The notes beneath the pieces are model-generated. The model had not been told where the DNA came from. It worked only from the letters and a program-made list of their open reading frames with translations, and did not search any database. The position numbers were made by a program, and so were the translations under genes. From a virus, in the IMG/VR virus record IMGVR_UViG_3300035670_000668, positions 1 through 37,201 of that record: a DNA stretch of 37,201 nucleotides. The stretch is one strand, 5' to 3'. Each line of letters opens with the position of its first letter. Position 1 is the stretch's first letter. Below, one piece after another: positions 3,900 to 25,906 of this stretch.

Positions 3900-4156
3900 T
3901 GGCTGGTGGCATATATAGTGGTTATAATGTTACTACAGGACATGAGTACGCCGATAAATCTTTTTATGGTTTTAGACTCGATGCTCCAAATGGTCAACTA
4001 TACTATGATTTTAATAATGGTGTAGCAGGAGTACCTGTTAGTATTCCCGATCCTTATGCTACAAGTGCAGAAGAGTACCTAATATATTTTTGGTCTAGCG
4101 ATACTATAAAATTTACAGTTAATGACGCTGGTCGCTTACTAATGGAGTACAAATAA
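3899..4156 (+). CDS. Small fibre-block protein of unknown function
   Basis: The 85-residue product is rich in Tyr, Gly and Asp (NGQLYYDFNNGV, YLIYFWSSDTIKFTVNDAGRL) and looks like a small beta domain. It overlaps both neighbours by a single base (TAATG at each end), so it is translationally coupled to the 107-residue protein before it and the giant fibre after it. I do not recognise a named family. A role as a structural adaptor for the long fibre is likely from this position but unproven. Confidence 0.65.
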   Translation: MAGGIYSGYNVTTGHEYADKSFYGFRLDAPNGQLYYDFNNGVAGVPVSIPDPYATSAEEYLIYFWSSDTIKFTVNDAGRLLMEYK

Positions 4157-7100
4157 TGTCACAGATTTTAGATCTTGGAAAAATTAGATTCCAGTTCAAA
4201 GGCGACTGGAGTGCTAGTGTTGAATATCAATTTAATGACGTTGTTACTTATAAAGGAGTAGCTTACGTCTATATTAGTACTGCAAAAACTACTGGTACAT
4301 TAACTAGTAATACCCAGTTTTGGGGTAAAATGACTAGTGGTGTTGACTTTGCCGGTGTTTGGTCTGGTGCTACAACTTATGGTCAAGGCAGTTTAGTAAG
4401 ATATGGAGCAAATTTATACGTTTATAGCAATAGTGTAGCTTCTAGTGGTAATTTACCCACTAATACTACATATTGGACATTGTATGCTCCTGGATGGAGT
4501 TATTTAGGTGTATGGAGTAGTAGTACTAATTATAAAATTGGTGAAGTAGTTAAATACGGTGGTAATACATATATTGCAGTACAAGATAACGTAGCTCAAA
4601 ATCCAGATAATAATACGGCTAATTGGACTAGTGCTATAGAAGGTATTCAATTTGAAGGCGTATATAACAATGCTACTAATTATCAAAAGAATGATTTAGT
4701 AACTTATGGTGGCAATACTTATATAGCACTATCAAATACTGTAGGTAATATACCTTCAAATACTACATATTGGAATTTATTTGCTAGTGGATTTAAATTT
4801 GAAAGTACTTGGTCTAGTGCTACTGCATATCAGCCAGGAGATGTAGTTAGTTATGGTGGTATTGTTTATATAGCAAATACAGAGAGCACTAATCAAAATC
4901 CTGATAATAATACTACTTATTGGAGTACCTTTGCTCCAGGCTTTCAAGTAGAAGGCACATATAATAATGCTACTAGTTATGAAAAGAATGATTTAGTAAA
5001 TTATGGTAGTAATACTTATATAGCTTTAACAAATACTACAGGTAATTTACCAACAAATAGTACGTATTGGTCACTGTTTGTTGGCGGCTGGAATTATCAA
5101 GGCACATGGAATACAACCACACAATATACAATTGGACAGGCGGTTAGTTATGGTGGTATTGTTTATGTAGCTGCACAAGATAGCTTAAATCAAAATCCAG
5201 ATAATAATACAGCTTATTGGACAACTGTAGCACCTGGATTTCAGTTTGAGGATTCCTATAATAACACAACAGCTTATCAGAAAAATGATGTAGTTAATTA
5301 TGGTGGTAGTACATATATTGCTAAAAGTAATACTACTGGTAATATTCCTACTAACACTACATACTGGAATCTGTTTAGTCCAGGTATTAAATATTTAGGA
5401 ACTTGGTCCCCTGCTACCACTTATAGGCCAGGAGATTTAGTTAAACTTGGCGGAAATCTTTATAGTGCCGTTATAGAACATAGTAATCAAAATCCTGATA
5501 ATAACACAACTTATTGGACTACAGTATTAGAAGGCTTTCAGTATGAAGCAAACTATTTAGCTGCTACTGATTATCAAAAAAATGACTTAGTTAAGTATGG
5601 TGGAAATTTATATATTGCCAAAACTAATACTCAGGGAAATCTACCTACAAACTCTACATACTGGGATTCCTTAGTTCCTGGATTTAACTTTGAAAATATT
5701 TATTCTGCAGGAACCTCATATCAACCAAACGATGTAGTAAAATATAATAATTCTTTATATATATCTACAAGTAATACAACGGGGAATTTACCTACTAATA
5801 CAGCATATTGGCAACAATTTATTACAAATGATAGTTTACAAAGTATAAATACCTACTATGTAGCACCTCATGGTAGTGATACTAACGATGGTTCTACTAT
5901 TGCTGCAGCATTTGCTACAATTAGAAAAGCTTGTGACACAGCTGGAATTAGTGGCAATCCTAGCACTATATTTGTAAAAACTGGTACTTATAGTGAAGTA
6001 CTACCAATAGTAGTACCTCCAAATGTAGCAATAGTTGGAGATAATCAACGCACAACTATTGTTCAACCAGCTGCTGGTCAAAATTTTCTTAATACAGGTG
6101 TCAATAATCAAACTACTATGTTTTTATTAAGTAATGGCAGCATTCTTAATAAAATGACTTTTATTGGTTTAACTGGTTGGGTTGTTGGAGCTATTCCAGG
6201 TGACGTGACTACAAGTACGCCTAAAGGAGTTATAGCTGCTTTTAATCCTGGTAGTCCCATAACTACTAAATCTCCTTATATTATTGAATGTTCTGCAATT
6301 GGTAGCGGATTAATAGGGGCTTTGGTAGATGGATCAGTTCATAATACCGGAGCTAAATCCATGATATTTCATGGATATACAATTATTAGTGATAATGGTA
6401 TTGGTTATTGGGTTAAAGACGCGGGTAAGGCAGAAATAGTTAGTTGTTTCACTTATTACTGTTATTTTGGATATGTAAGTACAGGTGGTGGGCATATTCG
6501 TGCCTTAAATGGTAACAACAGTTATGGTACCTGGGGTGCAGTAAGTAGTGGTTATGATGTAAACGAAACTGCAGTAACTGGTACACTATTAGGACAACAA
6601 TTAAATTTTACTTATACAGGCGGAACAATTAATATTGGCGATACTGTTACTTCTAGTAGCGGAGCAACAGGTATAGTAACAAATGTCCAGTATACGGCAG
6701 ATAAAGTTTATGTGCGAAATACATCAGGCACATTTAGCGTAGGAAATACTTTAACATTTACAAGTGGCGGTACCGGCACAGTTAAAACCGGAGCTTTAGA
6801 AGATCAAAAAGGTTTTATACTAATTCTTAACGGTTTAACAGCTGCACCTAAGCCGGGGCAAAGTATTCAAATTGCTGGAGATAATTTTGCTTATGTTGTT
6901 CAAAGTACTGCAGGTACTTATGTTAATACATCTAGCGAAATAATAGTTATATTAGCACAAGAAAAGCCAACAGGTAGTGCTAGCGGTAGCGCTGTAACAT
7001 TACGTAGTAAGTATAGTCAGATTAGATTAACCGGACACGATTTTCTATCAATTGGTACAGGTGGTGTAACTACCACAAATTATCCTAATACACCTACTCA

Positions 7101-7881
7101 GCCTGCTGCACAAGGTAACGAAACTAATGAAGTGTTTCCTGGACGCGTTTTCTATGTATCAACAGATCAAGACGGTAATTTTCGTGTAGGTGAATATTTT
7201 CGTATTGATCAGGCAACAGGACGTGCTACATTAAATGCAAGTGCTTTTGATTTAGCTGGTTTGACTAGTCTACGACTAGGTAGTATTGGTGCTCAACTTG
7301 GCGAAACCATTAACGAGTTTAGTAGTGATTCTACATTGAGTGGTAATAGTAATGTAGCTGTACCTACCGAGTATGCAGTAAAAGCTTATGTAGATAATCA
7401 AATTTCAGGTGTTACAGGTGGTAGTGGTGGTTTAGGTACAAAAGTAAGTAAAAGTGGTGATACCATGACCGGTGCACTAACTTTAAGTGGAGCACCTACA
7501 CAAGATTTACATGCAGCAACAAAACTTTATGTAGATACAGCAGATAATACTATTCTTGCAACGACTAATATATATAAATTTAACGATTTTGGTACAACAA
7601 TATCTAATAATTTAGTAATAGAGCAAGATGCAGTAGCTTATTTTTCATCAAGTTTAACAGTGTCACAAAATTGTCAAGTAGATGGTATATTAATGACTAT
7701 AGATATAACTGCTGGCGATACTTTACAAACACTTACAGCAAGTCCTACTATAGACACAACTTTAACTGGTAGTTTTGTCTCTACCAAACAGCAGTACAGT
7801 ATCCCAGCTTGGGTTACAATTACAGTTGGAGCAACTTCTACTGTAAACATTATTGATATTCCACGTACATATCTCTTTTAA
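4156..7881 (+). CDS. Giant tail fibre: CBM-like repeats plus beta-helix domain
   Basis: The 1241-residue product is modular. Residues about 12-556 hold eleven copies of a ~47-residue unit with the pattern W/Y..xTxYxxxDVVxYGGxxYIA...PxNxTYW, like chitin/cellulose-binding (CBM5/12-type) domains. A linker is followed by a pectate-lyase-like right-handed beta-helix starting at YYVAPHGSDTNDG (about residue 568), with FATIRKAC and IFVKTGTYSE typical of phage tailspike helices. A further beta region includes FRVGEYFRIDQATG. Near residue 1100 there is a fibre motif, GDTMTGALTLSG with AATKLYVDTAD. No obvious catalytic set was identified in the helix, so binding or depolymerase activity remains open. 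Confidence 0.9.
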   Translation: MSQILDLGKIRFQFKGDWSASVEYQFNDVVTYKGVAYVYISTAKTTGTLTSNTQFWGKMTSGVDFAGVWSGATTYGQGSLVRYGANLYVYSNSVASSGNLPTNTTYWTLYAPGWSYLGVWSSSTNYKIGEVVKYGGNTYIAVQDNVAQNPDNNTANWTSAIEGIQFEGVYNNATNYQKNDLVTYGGNTYIALSNTVGNIPSNTTYWNLFASGFKFESTWSSATAYQPGDVVSYGGIVYIANTESTNQNPDNNTTYWSTFAPGFQVEGTYNNATSYEKNDLVNYGSNTYIALTNTTGNLPTNSTYWSLFVGGWNYQGTWNTTTQYTIGQAVSYGGIVYVAAQDSLNQNPDNNTAYWTTVAPGFQFEDSYNNTTAYQKNDVVNYGGSTYIAKSNTTGNIPTNTTYWNLFSPGIKYLGTWSPATTYRPGDLVKLGGNLYSAVIEHSNQNPDNNTTYWTTVLEGFQYEANYLAATDYQKNDLVKYGGNLYIAKTNTQGNLPTNSTYWDSLVPGFNFENIYSAGTSYQPNDVVKYNNSLYISTSNTTGNLPTNTAYWQQFITNDSLQSINTYYVAPHGSDTNDGSTIAAAFATIRKACDTAGISGNPSTIFVKTGTYSEVLPIVVPPNVAIVGDNQRTTIVQPAAGQNFLNTGVNNQTTMFLLSNGSILNKMTFIGLTGWVVGAIPGDVTTSTPKGVIAAFNPGSPITTKSPYIIECSAIGSGLIGALVDGSVHNTGAKSMIFHGYTIISDNGIGYWVKDAGKAEIVSCFTYYCYFGYVSTGGGHIRALNGNNSYGTWGAVSSGYDVNETAVTGTLLGQQLNFTYTGGTINIGDTVTSSSGATGIVTNVQYTADKVYVRNTSGTFSVGNTLTFTSGGTGTVKTGALEDQKGFILILNGLTAAPKPGQSIQIAGDNFAYVVQSTAGTYVNTSSEIIVILAQEKPTGSASGSAVTLRSKYSQIRLTGHDFLSIGTGGVTTTNYPNTPTQPAAQGNETNEVFPGRVFYVSTDQDGNFRVGEYFRIDQATGRATLNASAFDLAGLTSLRLGSIGAQLGETINEFSSDSTLSGNSNVAVPTEYAVKAYVDNQISGVTGGSGGLGTKVSKSGDTMTGALTLSGAPTQDLHAATKLYVDTADNTILATTNIYKFNDFGTTISNNLVIEQDAVAYFSSSLTVSQNCQVDGILMTIDITAGDTLQTLTASPTIDTTLTGSFVSTKQQYSIPAWVTITVGATSTVNIIDIPRTYLF
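4186..5823 (+). repeat. Eleven tandem CBM-like coding repeats, alternating in two types
   Basis: Inside the giant fibre gene, eleven ~141-base units encode FxFEGxW...Y..xDVV.YGG..YIA...W. From unit 3 onward the closing motif alternates between QNPDNNTxYW (units 3, 5, 7, 9) and GN(L/I)PxNxTYW (units 4, 6, 8, 10, 11). The real period is therefore a ~282-base pair of units, which implies duplication of dimers. Confidence 0.85.
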
Positions 7882-11992: not shown

Positions 11993-12514
11993 ATGACTAC
12001 ATTAAAAGAGTTAACTAGCAATAACCATAAACGTGCCGAAGAACATAGTTTTACTAAATTATTATTAACAGGCAATATTTCTAATAAAATTTATGCTACG
12101 TTTTTATCTAATCAGCTATTACAGTATCAGGTTTTAGAACACTATGCTGCACACCTATTAAAGGATATTTCAGGACTTGCACGTAGTGAGCTACTACTAG
12201 AGGACTTATTAGAATTAAACGAACAAGCAATACTTTTTAAAAGTACACTAGAATACTGTCAGTATGCTAAAAAATTAGAAGATCATGCACTGTGGGCACA
12301 TATATATGTAAAGCATATGGGAGACCTATACGGTGGCCAAGTTATAAAGCAAAAAGTACCTGGCAATGGTAGTATGTATAATTTTGTTAATAGGCAAGAA
12401 TTAATAAAGCAATTAAGATCTAAATTAGATATATCTATGGCTAGTGAGGCTAATGTAGCATTTAGTTATGCTATAAAACTATTTGATGAAATAGCTAATG
12501 AGTACAATCTTTAA
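11993..12514 (+). CDS. ho1: Heme oxygenase
   Basis: The 173-residue product belongs to the biliverdin-forming heme oxygenase family, which cleaves heme to biliverdin IX-alpha, CO and Fe(II) with reductant and O2. The proximal heme ligand is His12 in NNHKRAEEHSF, matching the H..AE..xF signature. The distal helix signature is MGDLYGGQVIKQ (residues 109-120), equivalent to GDLSGGQ in cyanobacterial and mammalian enzymes. It is shorter than the usual 210-240 residues. The ATG directly follows the previous stop, and the end overlaps the bilin reductase by 17 bases, so the biliverdin-producing and biliverdin-using enzymes are probably co-translated. Confidence 0.93.
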   Translation: MTTLKELTSNNHKRAEEHSFTKLLLTGNISNKIYATFLSNQLLQYQVLEHYAAHLLKDISGLARSELLLEDLLELNEQAILFKSTLEYCQYAKKLEDHALWAHIYVKHMGDLYGGQVIKQKVPGNGSMYNFVNRQELIKQLRSKLDISMASEANVAFSYAIKLFDEIANEYNL

Positions 12515-13157
12515 CAAACTAAAACAACATGAAAAAGCCTTAGAAGAAATATTATCGTCTAAGGCTTTTTTAATACCTGACAAAAACACCTATACCTGGA
12601 CTAATAAGATTTTTAGTAACCCCTATATAAGACGTGCACATTTAGATTGTATAGATGCTACTACTACAAAAAAACTATATATGATGCACCTATGTTTATT
12701 TCCACAAACAAACATAGGTGCACCTATTTATGGGTTTGATATTATTGCTGGGCCAAATAAGGTAACCGGAGCATTTTTAGATTTTAGTCCCATAGATGAT
12801 TCGCATCAATTGTGTAATTGGTATAGTGATACTGTTAAAAATTATACATGGTCTAAGCCTAGAAATCTGCCAGACTGGGCTAAAAAAATATTTAGTACAA
12901 ATATGGTTGCGGCTGGCAATATAAATACACTAGAAGAACTAGACACTATATTAAATCTTAGTATAACGTTGTTGGAATATTATATAGAAAATATTCCAAA
13001 TAGTATTATTGCTGGTGATTACACTAGTCAACAAAATTTTTATTGCCAACAACAAAAGTGTAATCCACATACTCCTAGAGTTTTATCTAGTTTAGGTTTT
13101 GAACAGGATATGATAAATGATTTTATACATAATTGTTTGTTTCCAGAGTTGGTTTGA
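12498..13157 (+). CDS. pcyX: Ferredoxin-dependent bilin reductase, PcyX/PebS-like
   Basis: The 219-residue product shows the family core: RRAHLD, YMMHLCLFPQ, IYGFDIIAG, GAFLDFSP and, near the C-terminus, FYCQQQKCNPHTPRVL with a final LF. Against PcyA (Glu76, His88, Asp105 in the cyanobacterial enzyme, from memory) the equivalents are Asp50, His64 and Asp95. His and Asp are kept and Glu is replaced by Asp. The YCQQQ...RVL tail resembles PcyA, but the Asp of its 'ND' pair is Pro here. Loss of the Glu is typical of enzymes that stop at phycoerythrobilin, so that product is predicted. The symbol is tentative; pebS or a new clade remains possible. Confidence 0.88.
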   Translation: MSTIFNKLKQHEKALEEILSSKAFLIPDKNTYTWTNKIFSNPYIRRAHLDCIDATTTKKLYMMHLCLFPQTNIGAPIYGFDIIAGPNKVTGAFLDFSPIDDSHQLCNWYSDTVKNYTWSKPRNLPDWAKKIFSTNMVAAGNINTLEELDTILNLSITLLEYYIENIPNSIIAGDYTSQQNFYCQQQKCNPHTPRVLSSLGFEQDMINDFIHNCLFPELV

Positions 13158-13181: not shown

Positions 13182-13204
13182 TTACCATATAGGTAAATAA
13201 TGTG
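13182..13204 (+). promoter_or_regulatory. Small hairpin over the spanin ribosome site
   Basis: TTACC (13182-13186) can pair with GGTAA (13192-13196) around a 5-base loop. The only Shine-Dalgarno-like bases (AGG, 13191-13193) for the GTG at 13202 are inside this hairpin. Together with the GTG start, this suggests weak or delayed translation of the spanin genes. The stem is short, so the effect is uncertain. Confidence 0.35.
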
Positions 13205-13609
13205 TTTATTTTAAACTTTATACCTAGTTGGTTTTTTCCACTAGTAGCAATTATATCGCTTGTAATATTTTTAATTAGTAGATACATAAAATTGCCACAA
13301 GCGCAACTTGTACACTATAGTAGTATTATAGTATTTTCACTGGCATTATTTATGACAGGCGCAAACTGGAACAATGATCATTGGCTGGCTAAAGTTAAGG
13401 AAGTAGAGGCTAAATTAGCCGTAGCGGAAGCCGAAAGTGCTAAAGAAAATACTAAGATTGTAGAAAAAGTAATTACTAAACGTGAAATAGTGCGTGTGCA
13501 AGGTAATGAAATTGTAAAATATATAGATCGCGAAAAGCTGGTAATAGATGAAAATTGTAAAATACCAGAACCAGTTGTAGACGCACACAATAAGGCTGTA
13601 AAACAATGA
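13202..13609 (+). CDS. Inner-membrane spanin (i-spanin) with two predicted membrane spans
   Basis: The start is GTG at 13202; the overlapping ATG at 13200 meets a stop after four codons. The 135-residue product has two hydrophobic spans (about residues 8-28 and 38-57), then a charged coiled coil (AKVKEVEAKLAVAEAESAKE) and a periplasm-type tail ending in IPEPVVDAHNKAVKQ. This layout is common in marine phages immediately before an Rz1-like lipoprotein, as here with a 4-base overlap. It would bridge the inner membrane to the o-spanin for outer membrane disruption at lysis. Two spans rather than one are unusual for Rz and could include a holin-like part. Confidence 0.8.
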   Translation: MFILNFIPSWFFPLVAIISLVIFLISRYIKLPQAQLVHYSSIIVFSLALFMTGANWNNDHWLAKVKEVEAKLAVAEAESAKENTKIVEKVITKREIVRVQGNEIVKYIDREKLVIDENCKIPEPVVDAHNKAVKQ

Positions 13610-13866
13610 AATATGTTATTATATTCACATTAGCACTAGGTGGTTGCGCTACTACAGTGCCAGTAACACAGCGTTTTCCAGAAGCACCTAAACCGCTACT
13701 AGAGCACTGTAAGCCGCTTAAACAAGCTCCGCAAGGGGTACAATTAAGTGAGCTTACTAAAATTGTAGTAGATAACTATATGGAATATCATATTTGCAGT
13801 GGTAATAATAGTGCATGGATAGAGTGGTACACAACACAACAGCGTATATTTAACAAGGAGAAATAG
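13606..13866 (+). CDS. Outer-membrane spanin lipoprotein (o-spanin)
   Basis: The 86-residue product has a lipoprotein signal, MKYVIIFTLALGGCATT, with lipobox ALGGC (acylated Cys at residue 14). A Pro-rich stretch (VPVTQRFPEAPKPLLEHC) follows, then a helical tail with NYMEYHICSG and WIEWYTTQQRIF. Start and stop overlap both neighbours (ATGA with the i-spanin, TAGTG with the endolysin). This is the expected layout for a two-component spanin in which the lipoprotein sits in the outer membrane and meets the i-spanin coiled coil. Confidence 0.85.
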   Translation: MKYVIIFTLALGGCATTVPVTQRFPEAPKPLLEHCKPLKQAPQGVQLSELTKIVVDNYMEYHICSGNNSAWIEWYTTQQRIFNKEK

Positions 13867-14480
13867 TGGAACTAACAGAACAACAATTGCAGCAAATAAT
13901 TCCTAAAAATAAATATGTTAGCTATTGGCATACTGCGTTAGCTCAGTTATTACCACAATATGAAATAAATACGCCAGATCGAATAGCAGCCTTTCTAGCA
14001 CAGTGTGCACACGAGTCAGGTGGATTTGTTTTTATTAAAGAAAATCTTAACTATAAGTGGGCAAGCTTACGTAAAGTTTTTCCTAAGTACTTTCCTACAG
14101 ATGCATTGGCGCAGCAATATGAAAAACAACCACAAAAGATTGCTAATCGTGTTTATGCAAACCGCATGGGCAACGGTCCTGAAGAATCAGGAGATGGTTG
14201 GCGATTTTGTGGACGTGGATTAATACAGGTAACGGGTCGTGACAACTATAGCTGGTTTGCTGCCAGCTTGCACATTAGTCCAGAAGAGGCTAGTGAATAC
14301 ATGGAAACCTTTGAAGGTGCTGCACAGTCGGCATGCTGGTTTTGGGAATCAAACAATCTTAATCAATGGGCAGACAAGCGTGATATACTCACACTTACAA
14401 AACGCATTAATGGCGGAACAATAGGCTTAGAGGATAGAAAAAAGCATTACGAACATTGCTTACATATACTAAGCCACTAA
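13866..14480 (+). CDS. GH19-family endolysin
   Basis: The 204-residue product is a single-domain glycoside hydrolase family 19 enzyme expected to cut the peptidoglycan glycan chain. Catalytic Glu50 lies in AQCAHESGGF and the second Glu59 in FIKENLNY. The substrate-groove signature FCGRGLIQVTGRDNYSWF follows at about residues 119-136. No signal peptide or cell-wall binding domain is present, so release depends on a holin. The start is a GTG overlapping the o-spanin stop, with AAGGAGAAATA upstream. It completes the lysis module with the two spanins; the candidate holin is at 18597. Confidence 0.92.
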   Translation: MELTEQQLQQIIPKNKYVSYWHTALAQLLPQYEINTPDRIAAFLAQCAHESGGFVFIKENLNYKWASLRKVFPKYFPTDALAQQYEKQPQKIANRVYANRMGNGPEESGDGWRFCGRGLIQVTGRDNYSWFAASLHISPEEASEYMETFEGAAQSACWFWESNNLNQWADKRDILTLTKRINGGTIGLEDRKKHYEHCLHILSH

Positions 14481-14501: not shown

Positions 14502-15857
14502 ATGCTTAAAGTAGTATTAGCCTTTACAATCTTAATTGGTTTAGTAACACCAAGCCTTGCACAAAATGTTGCACCAATAGATCAAGGAAATTACGATGGT
14601 GGTCGTACCTTGGTCGATACAAACAGTACTAGCACTAGTATAAGTACTGTAAATACTAATAATACTAGTACTAGTAATACAAATAGCACTAGTCTTAGTA
14701 CAGTAAATAGTACAAGTACCAATACTAATACTAGTACAAATGTAAATACTAATAACAATATTCAAAGTGGTACTTTAACTAATATTAACAATAATAATCT
14801 TAGTGGAAGTGTTACTTACACTAATAATAACAACAATGTTCAAAGTGGTACTGTAACCTACAATAACAATAATGTTAATAGCGGTACAGTGACTTATAAT
14901 AACAATAATAACAGTACAAGTACAAGTACGGTTAATAATGTAAATAGTGGCACTCAAACATTTAATAATAACAATGTAATGAGTGGCACACTTACAAATA
15001 TTAATCAAAACACTACTACTAGTACTAATCGCAATGAAAATATAAATAGTGGTACACAAACTTTTAATAATGTTATGAGTGGTAACGTTACCTACAATAA
15101 CAATAATAATCTTAGCGGAAACGTTACTTATAACAATAATAACAACACTACTAGTAATAATACAAATACAAATATTAATACTGGTACTATGACCTATAAT
15201 AACAATAATGTATCAACCAGTACTAATACAAATATTAATACTGGTGATATGACTAATCGTAATATTAACACGAGCACTGTAGTACAAAGTACTGATGCTA
15301 CTAATAGAAATATTAATCAAAGTACTTCTATAAATCAAAATGTACAAACTGGTGATATGACTAATCGTAATATTAATACTAGTGCTAGTGTAAGCGATAA
15401 TAAAAGTACTAATATTAATAATAATATAAATCAAAGCTATAGCGATAGTACTCAAAGTGTAAAGACTGATAACATTAATACTAATATAAATAAAAGTGAA
15501 ATAACACAACGTGTAATACAACCACCACCTACTGCAATAGCACCTGCTATGATGAGCGGAGGCAGTCCAGATCTATGTACCACAGGTGTTAGTGGAGCAG
15601 CACAAACGCAAATATTTGGTATGAGCTTAGGCGGTACACAACGTGATATGAACTGTGAACGCTTAAAGTTATCAAAAACATTATATGATATGGGCATGAA
15701 GGTTGCTGCTGTTGCTACAATGTGCCAAGATAGACGAGTATTTGATGCTATGATGATGGCTGGAACTCCTTGTCCCTACGAAGGTGTAATTGGCGAAAAA
15801 GCTAAAGAAATGTGGTTGCAAAATCCTAATAAGATACCAAAACTAGTAGAAGGTTAG
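14502..15857 (+). CDS. Exported Asn/Thr/Ser-rich repeat protein with conserved Cys-rich C-terminal domain
   Basis: The 451-residue product has a Sec-type signal peptide (LKVVLAFTILIGLVTPSLAQ, cleavage near residue 21). From about residue 40 to 330 it is built almost entirely of Asn, Thr, Ser, Gly and Val, in short repeats such as SGTVTYNNNN every 11-14 residues, which suggests a beta-solenoid or amyloid-like shaft. The last ~105 residues are ordered: a PDLCTTGVSGAAQTQIFG segment, then DMNCERLKLSKTLYDMGMKV, MCQDRRVFDAMMMAG and TPCPYEG. I recognise this C-terminal module from other marine phages, without a known function. RBS AGGAG is upstream. The next gene starts one base after the stop. Confidence 0.85.
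   Translation: MLKVVLAFTILIGLVTPSLAQNVAPIDQGNYDGGRTLVDTNSTSTSISTVNTNNTSTSNTNSTSLSTVNSTSTNTNTSTNVNTNNNIQSGTLTNINNNNLSGSVTYTNNNNNVQSGTVTYNNNNVNSGTVTYNNNNNSTSTSTVNNVNSGTQTFNNNNVMSGTLTNINQNTTTSTNRNENINSGTQTFNNVMSGNVTYNNNNNLSGNVTYNNNNNTTSNNTNTNINTGTMTYNNNNVSTSTNTNINTGDMTNRNINTSTVVQSTDATNRNINQSTSINQNVQTGDMTNRNINTSASVSDNKSTNINNNINQSYSDSTQSVKTDNINTNINKSEITQRVIQPPPTAIAPAMMSGGSPDLCTTGVSGAAQTQIFGMSLGGTQRDMNCERLKLSKTLYDMGMKVAAVATMCQDRRVFDAMMMAGTPCPYEGVIGEKAKEMWLQNPNKIPKLVEG
14620..15515 (+). repeat. Low-complexity AAT/ACT-rich coding repeat
   Basis: About 900 bases of imperfect repeats, mainly aataacaacaat and agtggtactgtaacttat variants, encode the N/T/S-rich shaft of the exported protein. The opposite strand shows several ORFs here that are artefacts of the codon bias. 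Confidence 0.8.
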
Positions 15858-15858
15858 T

Positions 15859-17727
15859 ATGAAAGATAAGCTAATAACTTGGTTAATATTAGTAGGATTA
15901 ATGATAATATCTATAATACCAGGATTTGCACAAACACCTAGCATAGACATAACAGGTAATCTTGTAAATAATACACAAACTGCTACTGCTACAACATCAA
16001 CTTGGCAAAATGTAGTTTTTGATACTGAATTAAAATGTTGGGCACCTGGAGATGCTGGATATTGCGGACCACAGCCTATAGTGCGTCCAAGTGGTGATAT
16101 AAATTTTAGCTATGGTACCGCAGACATATATCAACGTGTAAATGTTGCTAAAGCACTAGCTAGTACAGGCTTAGTAACAACAGGATTTGTTTTTACTTGG
16201 CAGAGTAAAAATGGTAATGGTTGGGATGATGGTAGACTAGATCAGCTAGATGCCTATGTAAAATTATATAACACTGGGGATAGTAAAGTAATAGAGCAGT
16301 TTAATTATAACTTAAATACTGTACATGATTGGACAACGTATACCTGGAACCAAAACTGGACAAATACTAAAATAGGCTATCGTGGTAGTGATGTAGGAAA
16401 CGTGCAGTTTGGCTTTGTTGGCAGAGATAATAATTACTGGGCTGGACCATATGGACCTGAGGTTAATAATATAAGTTTTCAATTAAAATATAAACCTGAT
16501 CCATGCAAAAACAATCCACTTTTTAGCCCAGAATGTCCTAAATTTCAAGAAGAATTAGCAAAAGCTACTGCTACACCAACTACTGAAAAATTAGATCAGC
16601 CACAACAAAATGAATCTTTCCAAGAATCTAGAGATGGTTCTAGAGATAGACATGATCCTGAAATTGGACGTGATGATCCCTACGAAGAAGGCGTAGATTA
16701 TGGTAGCCTAGGTGTAGAAATAGGACTAACAAAAATATTTACTGCTCAGATTAAGCAAGAGGAACGCTCTGTAGAAATTGCCCAAGAAGCTGTTGAGCAA
16801 ACGGAAAAAGTTAGTGAACAGACTACTAAACAAGCAGAACTTATAGCTCGTGACAGTCAGCAGCGTAGTATTCGTGACAACGAGCAGTCACAAATAGATG
16901 GTCAGGTACAGCAAAATAGAAATCAAGAATCTATACTAGCTTTATTTCAAGGACCCAGTCTTAGCAGTAATGACAGAGCTTTTAAGCCTCCTACAGCATT
17001 ACAACAAACTTTAGATGTTTTTCAACAAAAAGACATAGGTCAGCCAGAACAACAGGCTAGACAAATAGTAGTTCAGCAACAGCAAGCCGAAAATATTTTA
17101 GCAAGTATTTATAAAAATAATCAAGAACAACAATCTTTAAATTTAAATACTACTAGTATATTACAAAATAATAGTTTAACTATATATAATGTTAGTGTAA
17201 TAAAAACAGAAGACATATTTGTACAGCCAGTGCAAAATACTGAACAGCAACAATTAGCAATTAGTTTACCTAGAGCTGTATTACCAAATATGCAGCCTTT
17301 GACTGAACAAATAACAGTACAACAACCAATACTACAGCTAAATTTACCAGAAATAAAATCTGTGCAAACTGAAGCGCCAGAAACTCCACAAGTAATAACT
17401 AGTTTTTTAACTAATAGAGCGGACCCAATAAATCAAGTTTTAGAGAATAAAACTGTTATAACATCAGAACAACAAGAAACAAAAGTTGCCAATATAAAAC
17501 AAAACGTTCAAGAAAATGATGCAGCAGTAGGAGTTTCTATTAATAGTATTGCTAAAACTCCACTAGGGTTTAATAGTTATTTAGTTGCATTAGCCGATGT
17601 ACAATTTTATCCATCAAAAGAAATTTATCGTAATCAACGTGTAGTAGACAATCAAAGAGCCCTTCGTCAATTAAGTAGTGATAAACTTCATCAAGAGATG
17701 ATAGAACTACAATATAGGAGTAGGTGA
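15859..17727 (+). CDS. Exported protein with beta domain and Gln-rich helical region
   Basis: The 622-residue product has a signal peptide (LILVGLMIISIIPGFAQ, cleavage near residue 25). A beta-sandwich-like domain at about residues 28-215 includes LKCWAPGDAGYCGPQP, FVFTWQSKNGNGWDDG and FGFVGRDNNYWAGPYG and ends with a Cys pair (DPCKNNPLFSPECP). From about residue 225 it is Gln/Glu-rich and mostly helical. A small C-terminal module holds TPLGFNSYLVALADVQFYPS. It starts one base after the Asn-rich protein and overlaps the next gene by one base, so these exported proteins form one unit. No known enzyme motif; the fold and role are unassigned. Confidence 0.78.
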   Translation: MKDKLITWLILVGLMIISIIPGFAQTPSIDITGNLVNNTQTATATTSTWQNVVFDTELKCWAPGDAGYCGPQPIVRPSGDINFSYGTADIYQRVNVAKALASTGLVTTGFVFTWQSKNGNGWDDGRLDQLDAYVKLYNTGDSKVIEQFNYNLNTVHDWTTYTWNQNWTNTKIGYRGSDVGNVQFGFVGRDNNYWAGPYGPEVNNISFQLKYKPDPCKNNPLFSPECPKFQEELAKATATPTTEKLDQPQQNESFQESRDGSRDRHDPEIGRDDPYEEGVDYGSLGVEIGLTKIFTAQIKQEERSVEIAQEAVEQTEKVSEQTTKQAELIARDSQQRSIRDNEQSQIDGQVQQNRNQESILALFQGPSLSSNDRAFKPPTALQQTLDVFQQKDIGQPEQQARQIVVQQQQAENILASIYKNNQEQQSLNLNTTSILQNNSLTIYNVSVIKTEDIFVQPVQNTEQQQLAISLPRAVLPNMQPLTEQITVQQPILQLNLPEIKSVQTEAPETPQVITSFLTNRADPINQVLENKTVITSEQQETKVANIKQNVQENDAAVGVSINSIAKTPLGFNSYLVALADVQFYPSKEIYRNQRVVDNQRALRQLSSDKLHQEMIELQYRSR

Positions 17728-18380
17728 TGAGTGAAGAAAAGGTAGACTTAGATAAGAAAGTTGAAGAACTGGAGGCAGCGGCTAAAAAGTATGCTAGTAA
17801 AGATACTGTTATTAGTGTTGGTGGTTATGATTTTACTCCTGCTAAATTAATGATTGTAGCCACTATTCTAAGTAGCGTACTTGGAGCACTTTATGGGGCC
17901 TTTGAAGTTTATAAAGACTATATTGGCATGAAAAAGAAGATCGCCGAATATGTTAGCCCAGATTTTAGTGAGTTTGACAAACGCCTAGCAGTCATTGAGG
18001 AAAATAGTGCAAAAACTGCTAAGGCTGTGCAAGAAGGCTCAGATAAAACTGCTGAGTATACACGCGATATTAAAAATGATCTTAAAGGTGATATACGCAG
18101 ATTAGAAAAAGTTGTTGAGTCAGTTGAAACTAGTAATAAACAACAGCAGCGTGAAATTGATAAAACTGTTACCGAGATTAAAACTGAGGTACGTAGTATA
18201 CAACGTGCAGCTGACGCTAGTTTAAATGCTGCTACTAAAGAAATGAATAAGATGAGTGCTGATAATGCTAAGGCTATTGCAGCAAATAATCGCGAAGTAG
18301 ATGCTAAACTCAAGGCATTAGATAAAAAAATTAATGATGACTTGAAAAAAGCACTAGATAATCCGCTAGCAAACAAATAA
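17727..18380 (+). CDS. Membrane-anchored coiled-coil protein
   Basis: I place the start at the ATG at 17727 (TGATG overlap) with AGGAGTAGG upstream; the GTG at 17724 is an alternative. The 217-residue product has a short charged N-terminus with VGGYDFTPAKLM, one hydrophobic span (LMIVATILSSVLGALYGAF, about residues 35-55), then a long Lys/Glu/Ala coiled coil to the end. Its orientation cannot be set from sequence. It is followed by a lipoprotein and a two-span protein, so it probably works in the host envelope with them. No enzyme motif is seen. Confidence 0.8.
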   Translation: MSEEKVDLDKKVEELEAAAKKYASKDTVISVGGYDFTPAKLMIVATILSSVLGALYGAFEVYKDYIGMKKKIAEYVSPDFSEFDKRLAVIEENSAKTAKAVQEGSDKTAEYTRDIKNDLKGDIRRLEKVVESVETSNKQQQREIDKTVTEIKTEVRSIQRAADASLNAATKEMNKMSADNAKAIAANNREVDAKLKALDKKINDDLKKALDNPLANK

Positions 18381-18387
18381 GGATATT

Positions 18388-18600
18388 ATGAGAATATTAT
18401 TATTAACACTACTACTAGCGGGTTGCAGTGACATGTACAGGTATCCCTGTCAAAATCCTGACAACTGGGAGCACAAAGTTTGTAAACGGCCTTATTGCAG
18501 TGCAAACGGTACTTGTCCAGAAGATTTAACTCCTTATGAAAAAGAACGTGTTACTGGTCCTCAACGACCATCAACAACGTCACCAAAGGATTGCAAATGA
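18388..18600 (+). CDS. Small Cys-rich lipoprotein
   Basis: The 70-residue product has a short lipoprotein signal, MRILLLTLLLAGCSD, with lipobox LLAGC (Cys13). The mature part contains four more Cys (YPCQNP, HKVCKRPYCSANGTCPED) and a Pro/Thr tail ending in DCK. It would be anchored to a membrane after lipid modification. Its stop overlaps the next ATG (ATGA). Its small size and lipid anchor would suit an o-spanin-like role, but a spanin pair already exists at 13202-13866, so it may instead be a superinfection-exclusion type envelope protein. Both roles are speculation. Confidence 0.78.
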   Translation: MRILLLTLLLAGCSDMYRYPCQNPDNWEHKVCKRPYCSANGTCPEDLTPYEKERVTGPQRPSTTSPKDCK

Positions 18601-19046
18601 TTAAAGATCTATGGGAAGGCCCACGCTATACTGAAGATGAGCTAATGGCCAGATTGAAGTTTATTATTGGCGTAGTGTTAGCTATGACATTATTTGGCAT
18701 TGTATTTGTTGTGTTATATAGCTTAATATTTGTAACACAACCAATGAATGGTATGAGTCCAGTAGATAATAAATTTTTTGAGTTAATTATACCAATAGCT
18801 ACATTTTTAACTGGCACATTAAGTGGCATTATGTTAGCAAGTGGTGATAAAGACGCACAAAAAATGGCACTACAAGCAGCAAACAAAGGTTGGGATAAGC
18901 CGCCAAGCCCACCGCCAACTATGATACCTACAGTTACCGTTGGTAATGGAGGTATTAGTATAGGTACCCCTGGTGGTAATCAACAAGTAACCGTAGGTTT
19001 TGGAGGCAAACCACAGCCACCTCAACCAACATTTCCAGAACTATAA
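18597..19046 (+). CDS. Two-span membrane protein, candidate holin
   Basis: The start is the ATG at 18597, which overlaps the lipoprotein stop and has AAGGATTGCAA upstream; a TTG six bases earlier is less likely. The 149-residue product has an N-terminal cytosolic-type segment (DLWEGPRYTEDELMAR), two hydrophobic spans (about residues 20-45 and 60-82) and a Pro/Gly-rich tail ending in PQPPQPTFPEL. Two spans with charged ends fit a class II holin, and no better holin is visible in the window, but similar proteins in other phages are simply hypothetical. It could instead be part of the envelope-directed set. Confidence 0.72.
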   Translation: MIKDLWEGPRYTEDELMARLKFIIGVVLAMTLFGIVFVVLYSLIFVTQPMNGMSPVDNKFFELIIPIATFLTGTLSGIMLASGDKDAQKMALQAANKGWDKPPSPPPTMIPTVTVGNGGISIGTPGGNQQVTVGFGGKPQPPQPTFPEL

Positions 19047-19059
19047 AGGGTTTTTAAAT

Positions 19060-19293
19060 ATGACAAAAACTTTATTAGCACTACTAGCATCAGCTTTTTT
19101 AGCAACTACAGCACTAGCAGATGCTCCCAAGAAAGCAGAAGAAAAAGCTCCTGCTAAAAAAGAAAAAGCTTGTATTGATAAAATAAAGGACGGCAAGCCT
19201 GTAATGGGCAAGGATGGTAAGCCAGAGCAAGTTTGTAAGGAAGTTAAAGTTCACGAAAAATTAGATGGTCATAAAGTACCAGATAAGAAGTAA
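19060..19293 (+). CDS. Small exported Lys-rich protein
   Basis: The start is the ATG at 19060 with AAGGG upstream; a longer frame from 19000 lies within the preceding gene. The 77-residue product has a signal peptide (KTLLALLASAFLATTALA, AxA cleavage before DAPKK). The mature part is basic: KKAEEKAPAKKEKACIDK, then a GKPVMGKDGKPEQVC segment and two Cys that could form a disulfide. It would act in the periplasm or outside the cell. I do not recognise a family. It closes the run of envelope-directed genes before phoH. Confidence 0.75.
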   Translation: MTKTLLALLASAFLATTALADAPKKAEEKAPAKKEKACIDKIKDGKPVMGKDGKPEQVCKEVKVHEKLDGHKVPDKK

Positions 19294-19320
19294 TCTTTGA
19301 CTAACATTACAAGGATTAAT

Positions 19321-19989
19321 ATGGGCAAGAGCAGTGCTAAAAAACAACGAAATGTAATCCCACTAGAGTTTGGTTTTAGAGATGTAAAGCCGCTAAATTA
19401 TATTCAAGAAACATATTTGCGTGCAATACATGAAAATGACATAGTTTTTGGTATAGGTAGTGCAGGCACTGGCAAAACCTATATTGCAGCTACTTATGCC
19501 GCCGGTGAACTATTTCATCGGCGCATAAGAAAAATTATACTAACTAGACCAAATGTTGAAACGGGCCGCGGGCTTGGATTCCTACCAGGTACCCTAGAAG
19601 AAAAATACGCACCATATTTAGAACCATTTAACGAAATATTTACTCGTAGTCTAGGACGCGGATTCTACGAATATGCACTGAATAAGAAAGATATAGAACC
19701 TAAACCGCTAGGATTTATGCGTGGAACTACTTTTGATGATTGCATAGTCTTACTAGACGAGGCACAAAATGCCACCAGAGATGAGATGAAAATGATCTTG
19801 TCACGCGTTGGTAAAAACTGTAAAATAATAGTTAGTGGGGATCAAGATCAAAGTGATATTGATAACAGTGGGTTAGAAGATGCGGCTAAGCGATTAGAAC
19901 GTATTGATGGCATAGAGGTTGTTAGATTTATGGACAGTGATATTGTTCGCAGCAAATTATGTAAAGATATTATAATGGCATATAGATAG
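19321..19989 (+). CDS. phoH: PhoH-like ATPase
   Basis: I start it at the ATG at 19321 with AAGGATTAAT upstream; a TTG at 19297 would add eight residues. The 222-residue product is a P-loop ATPase of the PhoH family. Walker A is FGIGSAGTGKTYIA, Walker B is CIVLLDEAQNAT, and GRGLGFLPGTLEEKYAPY and IIVSGDQDQSDI are family hallmarks. PhoH-like genes are frequent in marine phages. They are linked to RNA metabolism or phosphate stress in bacteria, but the phage role is not settled. It lacks the extra PIN or KH domains of PhoH2-type proteins. Confidence 0.92.
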   Translation: MGKSSAKKQRNVIPLEFGFRDVKPLNYIQETYLRAIHENDIVFGIGSAGTGKTYIAATYAAGELFHRRIRKIILTRPNVETGRGLGFLPGTLEEKYAPYLEPFNEIFTRSLGRGFYEYALNKKDIEPKPLGFMRGTTFDDCIVLLDEAQNATRDEMKMILSRVGKNCKIIVSGDQDQSDIDNSGLEDAAKRLERIDGIEVVRFMDSDIVRSKLCKDIIMAYR

Positions 19990-20001: not shown

Positions 20002-20181
20002 ATGGAAACTGTTACAGAAGCTGTTAGTAAACTATGGTTTTTAGGGGCTGGAATAGTTGCCATAGCTGCCTACGCTGTTACACTTAAAGTGCGGTTAGAT
20101 TATCTAGAAAAAAATTATGATCGACAAATTACTGCACTTTGGGATCAAATAAATAAGCTAATAAAAGATAGTAAAAGTTGA
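20002..20181 (+). CDS. Small single-span membrane protein
   Basis: The 59-residue ORF starts at an ATG with AGGAGTTTATAGCT upstream, which supports real translation. The product has one hydrophobic span (WFLGAGIVAIAAYAVTLKV, about residues 12-30) and then a short charged helix (DYLEKNYDRQITALWDQI). It ends one base before the cyclase ATG, which lacks a good ribosome site of its own, so cyclase translation may depend on it. It could be a membrane partner for a neighbour or an unrelated conserved phage peptide. Confidence 0.7.
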   Translation: METVTEAVSKLWFLGAGIVAIAAYAVTLKVRLDYLEKNYDRQITALWDQINKLIKDSKS

Positions 20182-20182
20182 T

Positions 20183-21415
20183 ATGGAAACTAAACTAGCA
20201 ACAATTATTTGTAGCGATGTTATAGGCTACAGTACATTAATGCAAAATGATGAGATAGGTACATTACAAAAATTAGATGCTTGTCGTGCAACCATAGATC
20301 CGCTAATAAATAAACATAGGGGTCGTTTATTTAATACTGGTGGAGATAGTATACTAGTAGAATTTGCTAGTGCTGTAGATGCTGTGCGATTTGGTGTAGA
20401 AATGCAGTATGCTATTCAAAAACTTAATAATGGCATGCGCTGGCGTATAGGTATGCACGTAGGGGAAGTTTGGATCTACGGTACTAATCTAATGGGCGAC
20501 GCTGTTAATCTTGCTGCTCGTACCGAAAGTCTTGCCGATTATGGTGGTGTCACAATGACTGAAGCAGTTTATGCTTTAGTACGCGGTAAATTAAAAGACT
20601 ATGATTATATTAGTCGTGGAGTACAAGAATTTAAGAATGTTAATCCCATGGAAATTTGGAGTATTAACATTAAAGGTGCTGAAGCTAATCCACATTTAAA
20701 TAAGCAATCAAAGCCTACTAAATCTATATCTAATACAAAAACTCATCAAGAACTAATAAGTGCGGTAATTAATGATCAAGCAGCAAGAAATCGTACACTA
20801 AATGATGCCATAGCATTTAAACAGGATTGTAAGTATGGACCCGCTACACGTATTTTAATGTGGCGTAGCATTAAACAAGACAGTTTGGCTTTAGACGAAT
20901 TAGTTAATATGCTTCAAAAAAGCTTAGTTCCACTAGACTTAAAACCTTATGTATTAGCAGTATTTAAAGAAGTTTGTCAAAAGACTAGTAGTGAAACTGC
21001 TATAAAAATAGCCGATTTGGTAGAAAAAGATAGCAAAAGTTTAGCAATACAAATATTACGTCAAGCTGCAAAAGTTAATGAGCAAGCAAGTTATAAATTA
21101 GCTATGCTAGTATTTAGTGATCCACATAGTAGCACTAATGAAATAGATAATGTGATAGGTGATTTACAAGAAAACGCAATGAAACGTAAAATACCTGCTA
21201 TGCTTAGTTTAGGCAAATACTATATACAAATTGGTAATAAGAAAAATGCTTTTCGCTGGTTATACGCTGCTCGTGCAGAACACAATAATGAAGCACAAAA
21301 CTTACTAGAAGAATTGAATAAAACTATCAGCAAAGCTGAATTTAATAACTTTAAAACAGATGCCGATGCATTAGTAGATCAAATTAAATTTATTGATGAT
21401 AATAGGATGAGGTAA
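20183..21415 (+). CDS. Class III nucleotidyl cyclase with helical-repeat C-terminus
   Basis: The 410-residue product has an N-terminal class III adenylyl/guanylyl cyclase domain (about residues 1-175) making a cyclic nucleotide from an NTP. The metal-binding Asp12 (SDVIGYS) and Asp55 (TGGDS), the region IGMHVGEV, and the transition-state Asn109 and Arg113 (VNLAAR) are all present, so it looks active. The two base-specifying positions, usually Lys and Asp in adenylyl cyclases, are Asn51 and Asn102. The remainder (about 190-410) is alpha-helical with Sel1/TPR-like segments (SLGKYYIQIGNKKNAFRWLY). The catalytic domain is close to soluble cyclases common in Alphaproteobacteria, suggesting capture from a host. 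Such genes are rare in phages. Confidence 0.9.
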   Translation: METKLATIICSDVIGYSTLMQNDEIGTLQKLDACRATIDPLINKHRGRLFNTGGDSILVEFASAVDAVRFGVEMQYAIQKLNNGMRWRIGMHVGEVWIYGTNLMGDAVNLAARTESLADYGGVTMTEAVYALVRGKLKDYDYISRGVQEFKNVNPMEIWSINIKGAEANPHLNKQSKPTKSISNTKTHQELISAVINDQAARNRTLNDAIAFKQDCKYGPATRILMWRSIKQDSLALDELVNMLQKSLVPLDLKPYVLAVFKEVCQKTSSETAIKIADLVEKDSKSLAIQILRQAAKVNEQASYKLAMLVFSDPHSSTNEIDNVIGDLQENAMKRKIPAMLSLGKYYIQIGNKKNAFRWLYAARAEHNNEAQNLLEELNKTISKAEFNNFKTDADALVDQIKFIDDNRMR

Positions 21416-22056: not shown

Positions 22057-22086
22057 GAAAAAGCCCGCTTATAGCGGGCTTTTTTA
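22057..22086. terminator. Bidirectional rho-independent terminator between convergent operons
   Basis: An 8-bp G+C-rich stem, AGCCCGCT (22062-22069) with AGCGGGCT (22073-22080), is flanked by an A-run on one side and a T-run on the other, so it can stop transcripts from both strands. The TAA of the minus-strand gene (22084-22086) lies within its T-run. Confidence 0.93.
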
Positions 22087-24730: not shown

Positions 24731-25906
24731 TTACCAAGATTGTGTTGTAAGATCTATGTTATAAATACCTATAAAAGTAATAACTAGTTCTGGCCAATCA
24801 TACTCAATGGTGTTATAATAATCAATTGCTTGTATTGTTTCTTGTGCTGTAGGTTCTCTGTCTAGGCCTAAGTGAAATAGTCCTTGCACTCGCTCTATTA
24901 GCGGCACAGTACTAAGGTCATGTCCAACAAATGACTTATTAGACCAAGACCAAAACTCATCTACTGTTTTTTGTAGCGTCCAGTTATTTTTATCTATTGA
25001 TTGGATCCAAGTTTCTAGCTGTTTAGGATCACTATTTGTGCCACGAATTACTTCAAATAGTGCATCTACCTTAGTCCACTTATCTATAGTATGTTTAGGG
25101 TCAAATGTCCAAGTATAATCTTCTCTAGTAATGTTATCAGAAAATAGCGTCACGCTATAACCTAATCTACCATCTCTTACTAAATTGGTTTCTAGATTCC
25201 AAGGATCTAATACCTGAGCAACCCAAGTATTACCATCTCTAGTAAAAGTCATATGTTTACTATTACGTTCTAATACAGTTCTTATTTGATTTAATGTATA
25301 CGTGTTGTCATGGTCTTTGATATAGGTTATTAAACCAGCTACTCTTGGTGCAGCATAACTAGTGCCGGCATCACCTTGAATATAAAAATCTACAAATTTA
25401 GGTGCAACTTCGCTAAAATCAGCTAACTCAAATTTTGCTAGTTTTAGTGCTCTGTTTTGTTCATTTAAGGTCTCAGTTCCAGGTCTCCAATCAAATGTAT
25501 CTATTGCGCCTATAGTAAAATCATATGGTGTACTTTGATATTTGCCTATAGTAGTAAAACTACTTCCAACTCCGTCAAGCCCTACTATAAAACCTTCACC
25601 ATTATTTCCTGCACTTGTAGTAAATGCAGTATTTTTTAAATATCCTTGTTTAATTACAGTATCGCCGTAATCATAATTACTTACATATCTAGTTAAACTA
25701 AAACTCCAGTTAATTACATCAGCATAACCCAGTAATTTAGCCGAACTAATATCTGGTTCGGCTACTTGTGGATCCTTATTATAGCTTCTGTCTACTGTTG
25801 CAAATATTGTTTTAGAAACGGCATAGTCTCTAAATGATCTTAGTACATTATAGTCGTGACCTTGACCTATTTCGTCCACATTTACTACTAGTGAATTATA
25901 AGACAT
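24731..25906 (-). CDS. Subtilase (S8)-like protein with atypical N-terminus
   Basis: The 391-residue product shows the second half of a subtilisin fold: YADVINWSFS (61-70), the oxyanion Asn in SAGNNG (98-103), DFTIGAID (129-136) and the nucleophile motif GTSYAAPRVAG (181-191, Ser183). The Asp and His parts are not clear. VNVDEIGQGHDYN (9-20) offers Asp11 and His17, but they are closer together than in known subtilases, so it may be compact, inactive or dependent on another chain. Residues ~240-391 are an unassigned helical domain with LFHLGLDREPTAQE, faintly like DUF4214. It overlaps the exonuclease by 19 bases and lies in the DNA-metabolism operon. Confidence 0.75.
   Translation of the reverse strand: MSYNSLVVNVDEIGQGHDYNVLRSFRDYAVSKTIFATVDRSYNKDPQVAEPDISSAKLLGYADVINWSFSLTRYVSNYDYGDTVIKQGYLKNTAFTTSAGNNGEGFIVGLDGVGSSFTTIGKYQSTPYDFTIGAIDTFDWRPGTETLNEQNRALKLAKFELADFSEVAPKFVDFYIQGDAGTSYAAPRVAGLITYIKDHDNTYTLNQIRTVLERNSKHMTFTRDGNTWVAQVLDPWNLETNLVRDGRLGYSVTLFSDNITREDYTWTFDPKHTIDKWTKVDALFEVIRGTNSDPKQLETWIQSIDKNNWTLQKTVDEFWSWSNKSFVGHDLSTVPLIERVQGLFHLGLDREPTAQETIQAIDYYNTIEYDWPELVITFIGIYNIDLTTQSW

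Follow-up and report, generated by a model that had tools for sequence, protein, structure and literature searches.

A class III nucleotidyl cyclase gene within a 37,201-nt stretch of viral DNA (positions 1 to 37,201 of IMG/VR record IMGVR_UViG_3300035670_000668; hereafter the window) belongs to a phage family found in the company of lysis-associated genes, and this gene context, absent from an earlier note on the sequence, is our main finding and points to a lysis or membrane module. A small membrane protein accompanies the cyclase wherever enough flanking DNA is available, one subgroup of related phages carries the cyclase gene inside a lysis cassette, and a separate subfamily of phage cyclases is independently placed in the same kind of surroundings. 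Judging from gene order and sequence conservation, we tentatively favor the view that the protein is an active cyclase belonging to a late lysis/membrane module of an uncultured phage lineage.

Phages with a class III cyclase have been described before. What our literature search did not find was a phage clade with Asn at both base-specifying positions and a Sel1-like tail, its pairing with small membrane proteins, or the placement of two cyclase families in lysis cassettes. Phage lysis timing is understood in terms of holins, antiholins, and SAR endolysins; we know of no cyclic-nucleotide input to it, and a literature search on cyclase, holin, and lysis timing turned up none. If phage cyclases are parts of lysis modules, they would provide a second-messenger route into lysis timing for marine and freshwater phages, and the patterns described here suggest that cyclic nucleotide signalling may come into play in some uncultured aquatic phages at about the time of host burst.

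Table 1. Features of the window discussed in the text.
Feature	Position	Strand	Remarks
Heme oxygenase (PF01126) overlapping ferredoxin-dependent bilin reductase (PF05996)	11993-13157	+	Bilin-synthesis pair
Spanin-like pair	13202-13609 / 13606-13866	+	PHROG/Pfam
Endolysin	13866-14480	+	PHROG/Pfam
F7, N/T/S-rich repeat protein	14502-15857	+	Signal peptide
F8, 622 aa	15859-17727	+	Signal peptide
F5	17724-18380	+	TM plus coiled coil
F4	18388-18600	+	Lipoprotein-like
F3	18591-19046	+	Membrane protein
Small secreted protein	19000-19293	+	
PhoH	19297-19989	+	
F2, 59-aa single-TM protein	20002-20181	+	1-nt gap upstream of cyclase
Class III nucleotidyl cyclase gene	20183-21415	+	410 aa; ATG at 20183, stop ends at 21415
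Catalytic domain, residues 1-165	20183-20677	+	Pfam PF00211; best Foldseek matches 3mr7, Rv1900c, Ma1120
Asp12 codon, first metal Asp	20216-20218	+	Invariant, 49/49
Asn51 codon, first base-specifying position	20333-20335	+	Asn in 49/49 phage loci
Asp55 codon, second metal Asp	20345-20347	+	Invariant, 49/49
Asn102 codon, second base-specifying position	20486-20488	+	Asn 44/49, Asp 5/49
Asn109 to Arg113 codons, transition-state pair	20507-20521	+	Invariant, 49/49
Sel1/TPR-like helical tail, residues 186-410	20738-21412	+	Last 20 residues strongly conserved
F9, 211 aa	21420-22055	+	Directly downstream of cyclase; ~100-residue part of phrog_2859 matched
Strong bidirectional intrinsic terminator-like hairpin	22057-22085	+	Closes the + strand gene run

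Catalytic domain and C-terminal tail

By profile, catalytic residues, and predicted fold, the open reading frame is confirmed as a class III nucleotidyl cyclase. Pfam Guanylate_cyc (PF00211) matches residues 6-161 with 40.8 bits (E 2.4e-10), exceeding the curated cut-off of 21.9 bits, and the same profile is matched by all 22 aligned orthologues. The nearest NCBIfam model is LipJ/Rv1900c, and sequence comparison with solved structures ranks 3mr7 first (E 1e-21). An AlphaFold2 model built from the 22 phage orthologues (pLDDT 84) has a predicted catalytic domain resembling those of Rv1900c (1ybu/1ybt), 3mr7, and Ma1120, with target-normalised TM of 0.82-0.90 in Foldseek, and of 0.82-0.88 for Rv1900c and 3mr7; a structure comparison of residues 1-165 of this predicted model against the same three proteins gave Z of about 24. 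The earlier note had called the gene a phage class III cyclase with Asp12, Asp55, Asn109, and Arg113 intact, and both the call and the residue numbering proved right: all four residues are invariant across 49 phage loci, as are Asn51, the phosphate residue K151, and C10, which lies two residues ahead of the first metal Asp.

The C-terminal tail had been described as Sel1/TPR-like and helical, a description that the models confirm at the level of fold. Modelled by itself, the tail reached pLDDT 93, and its top PDB matches are Sel1/TPR repeat proteins with weak E-values (1e-3 to 1e-2), among them LpnE, AlgK, and Oxalobacter Sel1 as the best. It differs from those proteins in having no Sel1 Pfam match: among 22 members no Sel1 or TPR profile matched at E 0.1, and only a weak RPN7 match was seen. 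The tail is Sel1/TPR-like in fold and an orphan in sequence.

Orthologues, selection, and origin

The earlier note had proposed a search of related phages and a cyclase tree, and had allowed that the gene might be a decaying insert confined to one genome. That idea clearly fails. A first alignment-based scan of IMG/VR gave 28 contigs with catalytic-domain identity of 75-84%, and a second gave 48 contigs for analysis, or 49 loci including the window. Cyclase orthologues are thus present in no fewer than 48 further IMG/VR contigs, with full-length identity to the window protein of 63-77%, and the gene is under strong purifying selection, with dN/dS of about 0.07 in the catalytic part and 0.06 in the tail (17 unsaturated pairs). 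In the tree the phage cyclases form one fully supported clade on a stem of 1.2-1.9 substitutions/site, which sets them apart from the alphaproteobacterial cyclases that are their nearest cellular sequences.

Because these nearest cellular relatives are only 40-47% identical in the catalytic domain, the acquisition is old and the architecture apparently phage-specific. The closest cellular kin are NTAGDS-type cyclases of Microvirga and Bradyrhizobium together with 3mr7 (Ruegeria/Silicibacter pomeroyi); alphaproteobacterial cyclases mostly carry other C-terminal modules (often TM, TolB-like, or TPR) that are unrelated in sequence to the phage tail. No cellular orthologue beyond E 1e-50 was present among the matches listed for 754 alpha- and gammaproteobacterial genomes, in a search whose positive control worked. 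As far as sequence comparison goes, then, the phage clade has no close cellular donor, though prophage copies may conceivably sit in cellular genomes.

Two sets of matches were left uncounted as phage orthologues. The INPHARED match MT838110 (L002) is GC-rich, bacterial-looking DNA with a multidomain cyclase, and the distant IMG/VR matches L039-L051 (except L043) are ordinary rhizobial-type cyclases. MT838110.1 was deposited as a human fecal bacteriophage scaffold and is probably no phage. Another locus, L122, from the uncultured marine alphaproteobacterium AG-337-E14, has two adjoining cellular cyclases with an Asn/Asn pair on a long branch. As for the window phage itself, its DNA polymerase is 48% identical to those of T5-like phages, its RNR is similar to those of roseophages and of uncultured aquatic phages, and F5 resembles a pelagiphage protein.

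Base-specifying residues and substrate

Canonical adenylyl cyclases have Lys at the first base-specifying position and Asp at the second, a pair absent both from the window cyclase (Asn/Asn) and from five relatives (Asn/Asp). The canonical guanylyl cyclase pair, Glu with Cys or Gly (PMC4215837, and general knowledge), is absent from Asn51/Asn102 of the window cyclase as well. Asn at both positions, as first noted, holds for the window, and at position 51 for every phage locus; it does not extend to position 102 throughout, where the minority of loci have Asp. Since this Asp102 group of five loci is nested within the phage clade, Asp102 is a reversal.

The suggestion that these residues are exceptional was not sustained. 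Among 104 cellular relatives the base pairs are K/D in 53, N/D in 29, and N/N in 6, with others making up the remainder, and 36 of the 104 have Asn at the first position. Rv1900c, a known adenylyl cyclase, also shows the Lys-to-Asn change when aligned with the window cyclase, and its second base residue is Asp. Asn51 being common in cellular relatives and present in Rv1900c, a new base specificity is not implied. Sinha et al. in 2005 reportedly found that Rv1900c uses ATP, shows slight side activity on GTP, and can do without Asn342; Rv0386 functions with a Gln/Asn base pair. An Asn/Asp swap at a base-contact position would suit a purine, most simply ATP, over a new pyrimidine specificity, and by analogy with Rv1900c the main substrate is most likely ATP and the main product cAMP, with some use of GTP.

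Rv1900c (LipJ of M. tuberculosis, PDB 1ybt/1ybu) is also the nearest solved fold by Foldseek, with TM of 0.83-0.88 on the target, and shares the NTxGD motif along with its Asn. The two proteins are nonetheless only 28% identical, and Rv1900c differs in having Asp at the second base position, His at the position of Asn109, and a fused alpha/beta-hydrolase where the phage cyclase has its Sel1-like tail.

A small membrane protein and lysis cassettes

The cyclase belongs to a same-strand run of genes that opens with the spanin-like pair and endolysin and ends at the hairpin (Table 1). In the window the spanins and endolysin lie ~5.7 kb upstream of the cyclase, with only F2 adjoining. On the other side, F9 is conserved in the window-type gene arrangement, and the secreted/membrane block F7-F8-F5 (14502-18380) is found near the cyclase in two genome arrangements. 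F7 and F8 possibly form an extracellular fibre; neither matched the curlin profile.

Each of the 44 loci with sufficient flanking sequence encodes a small membrane protein beside the cyclase, F2 in 36 cases and F27 (phrog_18771 by PHROG match) in 8. Treating F2 and F27 as one family was rejected, as homology between them is not detectable. The adjacency of the cyclase to F2 or F27 holds across three gene arrangements, in which F2 lies immediately upstream, often overlapping; immediately downstream on the opposite strand; or farther upstream, separated by two membrane genes. Within the cyclase loci, the cyclase is the sole constant neighbor of F2.

A scan for F2 also recovered about 49 contigs with no cyclase nearby. 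With few exceptions, F2 there sits directly against one of three genes: the holin-like F25, a phage lysozyme gene, or a gene of the same cassettes that encodes a 66-aa TM protein. The cyclase was absent from the 24 whole F2 records tested, which may be fragments. F25 matches a holin PHROG at 6.7e-5, and in the isolate AcaML1 an F25 homologue abuts an annotated lysozyme gene. These surroundings mark F2 as a lysis-cassette gene by position, and it is at most a putative holin or antiholin. The two contexts come together in nine contigs (L145, L148, L152-L157, and L173; some cut at one end) with the order F2, 66-aa TM, F25, cyclase, Phage_lysozyme; the lysozyme gene of L148 shares 4 nt with the cyclase gene. 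By location the cyclase is a lysis-module gene, amid holin-like and lysozyme genes in these nine contigs and beside F2 or F27 elsewhere, and it is only from this gene order that we infer its coupling to lysis.

CHASE2-type cyclases in other phages

The earlier note had considered such cyclases rare in phages, which they are not: at least two families occur widely in IMG/VR. CHASE2-type class III cyclases, a separate subfamily, occur in at least 600 IMG/VR contigs, and PHROGs lists their family as phrog_35576 with function unassigned. Like the window cyclase they are phage-encoded class III enzymes, but they differ in having a membrane CHASE2 sensor and Lys (or Arg) at the first base position. 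Among the IMG/VR loci examined (L271-L350), holin, endolysin, or spanin genes lie directly downstream, within 1.5 kb on the same strand, in 71 of the 76 with room for them, the genes concerned being GTA_holin_3TM (phrog_3427), Peptidase_M15_3 or Phage_lysozyme, and an Rz-like spanin. Identity to the query is 67-75% across these cyclases, so this is one conserved association and not 71 events. That unrelated cyclases of two phage families both occur near lysis genes is suggestive.

Two cultured phages, HTVC008M (Pelagibacter) and Melnitz (Methylophilales), have annotated homologues of the CHASE2-type cyclases (32-34% identity), which follow curli genes and not lysis genes; a 2022 paper had already reported phage adenylate cyclases in the neighborhood of curli genes (PMC9599517). 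This curli/T8SS context was rejected for window-type phages, which lack it: CsgG (PF03783) and curlin repeats (PF07012) were found in none of 35 cyclase records, which are incomplete contigs, with positive results for the controls. Bilin synthesis was similarly set aside as a partner system of the cyclase. The phage bilin-synthesis pair has already been described for aquatic phages (PMC11480375), and a link to the cyclase is not indicated because bilin reductase occurs in just 4 of 35 cyclase records.

Proposed function and competing readings

Under the lysis-module reading, two cyclase subunits would pair, with Asp12 and Asp55 holding the metal and Asn109 and Arg113 stabilizing the transition state as a triphosphate is converted to a cyclic nucleotide. 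ATP remains the most likely substrate of the Asn51/Asn102 pocket, whose specificity would be relaxed, and cAMP the likely main product. For the Sel1/TPR-like tail, the most likely role is docking on a small inner-membrane protein, F2 in the window and F27 in eight relatives. As F2 is otherwise a lysis-cassette protein, cyclic-nucleotide synthesis would be tied in place and time to the close of infection, where it might set, or be gated by, the holin-controlled lysis step. A CRP-like effector encoded by the cyclase phages themselves was sought as PF00027 and rejected, this cNMP-binding profile being found in none of 29 cyclase phage records (incomplete contigs; Pycsar effectors, moreover, need not all match PF00027). 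A host receptor or direct protein contact is favored by this result: the product could time the holin or act late through a host receptor, and the membrane protein could instead gate the cyclase. A broader version, in which at least two unrelated phage cyclase lineages use a cyclic nucleotide as a lysis timer or sensor, with F2/F27 or CHASE2 coupling the state of the envelope to synthesis and holin triggering, strikes us as rather doubtful.

Phage lysis regions also hold accessory genes, and an alternative reading of the placement is a late-region hotspot for such genes. Such a hotspot, or late expression, could account for the placement if the gene served in host reprogramming, in which phage-made cAMP drives CRP-type regulation of carbon use, stress, or surface structures. 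The absence of PF00027 from the 29 phage records, which would make a host receptor necessary, is consistent with such a role, as are the alphaproteobacterial affinity of the nearest cellular cyclases, the host-metabolism genes of the window (heme oxygenase, bilin reductase, PhoH, and RNR), and the similar interpretation given to the curli-cluster phage adenylate cyclases (PMC9599517). It is a possible explanation but on balance an unlikely one, for it does not account for a small membrane protein that stays with the cyclase at 44 of 44 loci through three rearrangements, nor for the lysis genes that follow an unrelated phage cyclase family at 71 of 76 loci.

The constant adjacency of a cyclase and a small TM protein also recalls Pycsar, which couples class III-like cyclases with membrane effectors (PMC11224242), and a two-gene unit of this kind, whose cyclic nucleotide opens or activates the small membrane protein against superinfection or as an abortive switch, can be imagined. 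With 59 residues, however, F2 is too small for a nucleotide-binding domain, no PF00027 protein was found in the 29 records, and F2 is common inside the lysis cassettes of cyclase-less phages, all of which makes such a weapon improbable.

A slimmer chance attaches to counter-defence, whereby a flood of cyclic nucleotide, possibly of pyrimidine type, would occupy or silence defence receptors. Host defence by cyclic UMP and CMP, and phage counter-measures to it, do exist (PMC9117128), and both the altered base residues and a PADLOC PycC profile match might be read in this light. PycC shares a class III-related fold with the phage cyclase, but the match is weak (E 7e-4) and of a kind that any class III domain would give, and the known phage counter-measures degrade such signals and do not make them. 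The clade E PycC base residues F100/R142/Q144 (PMC11224242) are missing from the phage cyclase, which has C10/N51/G53 at these positions as offset from the metal Asp; other clades can be mapped by sequence only in part. The earlier note's proposal of interference with cyclic-nucleotide defence is accordingly not supported, the 29 records having shown no PF00027 protein either. Least probable is a catalytically dead scaffold that binds nucleotide and senses ATP level or the membrane with no product, since loss of the canonical Lys/Asp contacts and a tail suited to protein binding are set against the invariance of D12, D55, N109, R113, and K151 in 49 loci and the activity expected of those relatives, cellular and mycobacterial, whose first base residue is Asn.

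Two further genes of the window deserve mention. The tail fibre of 1241 aa (4156-7881, + strand) contains nine CBM5/12 (chitin-binding type) repeats, and a subtilase-like (Peptidase_S8) open reading frame (24731-25906, - strand) lies between dUTPase-like and exonuclease genes and is found in two related loci only.
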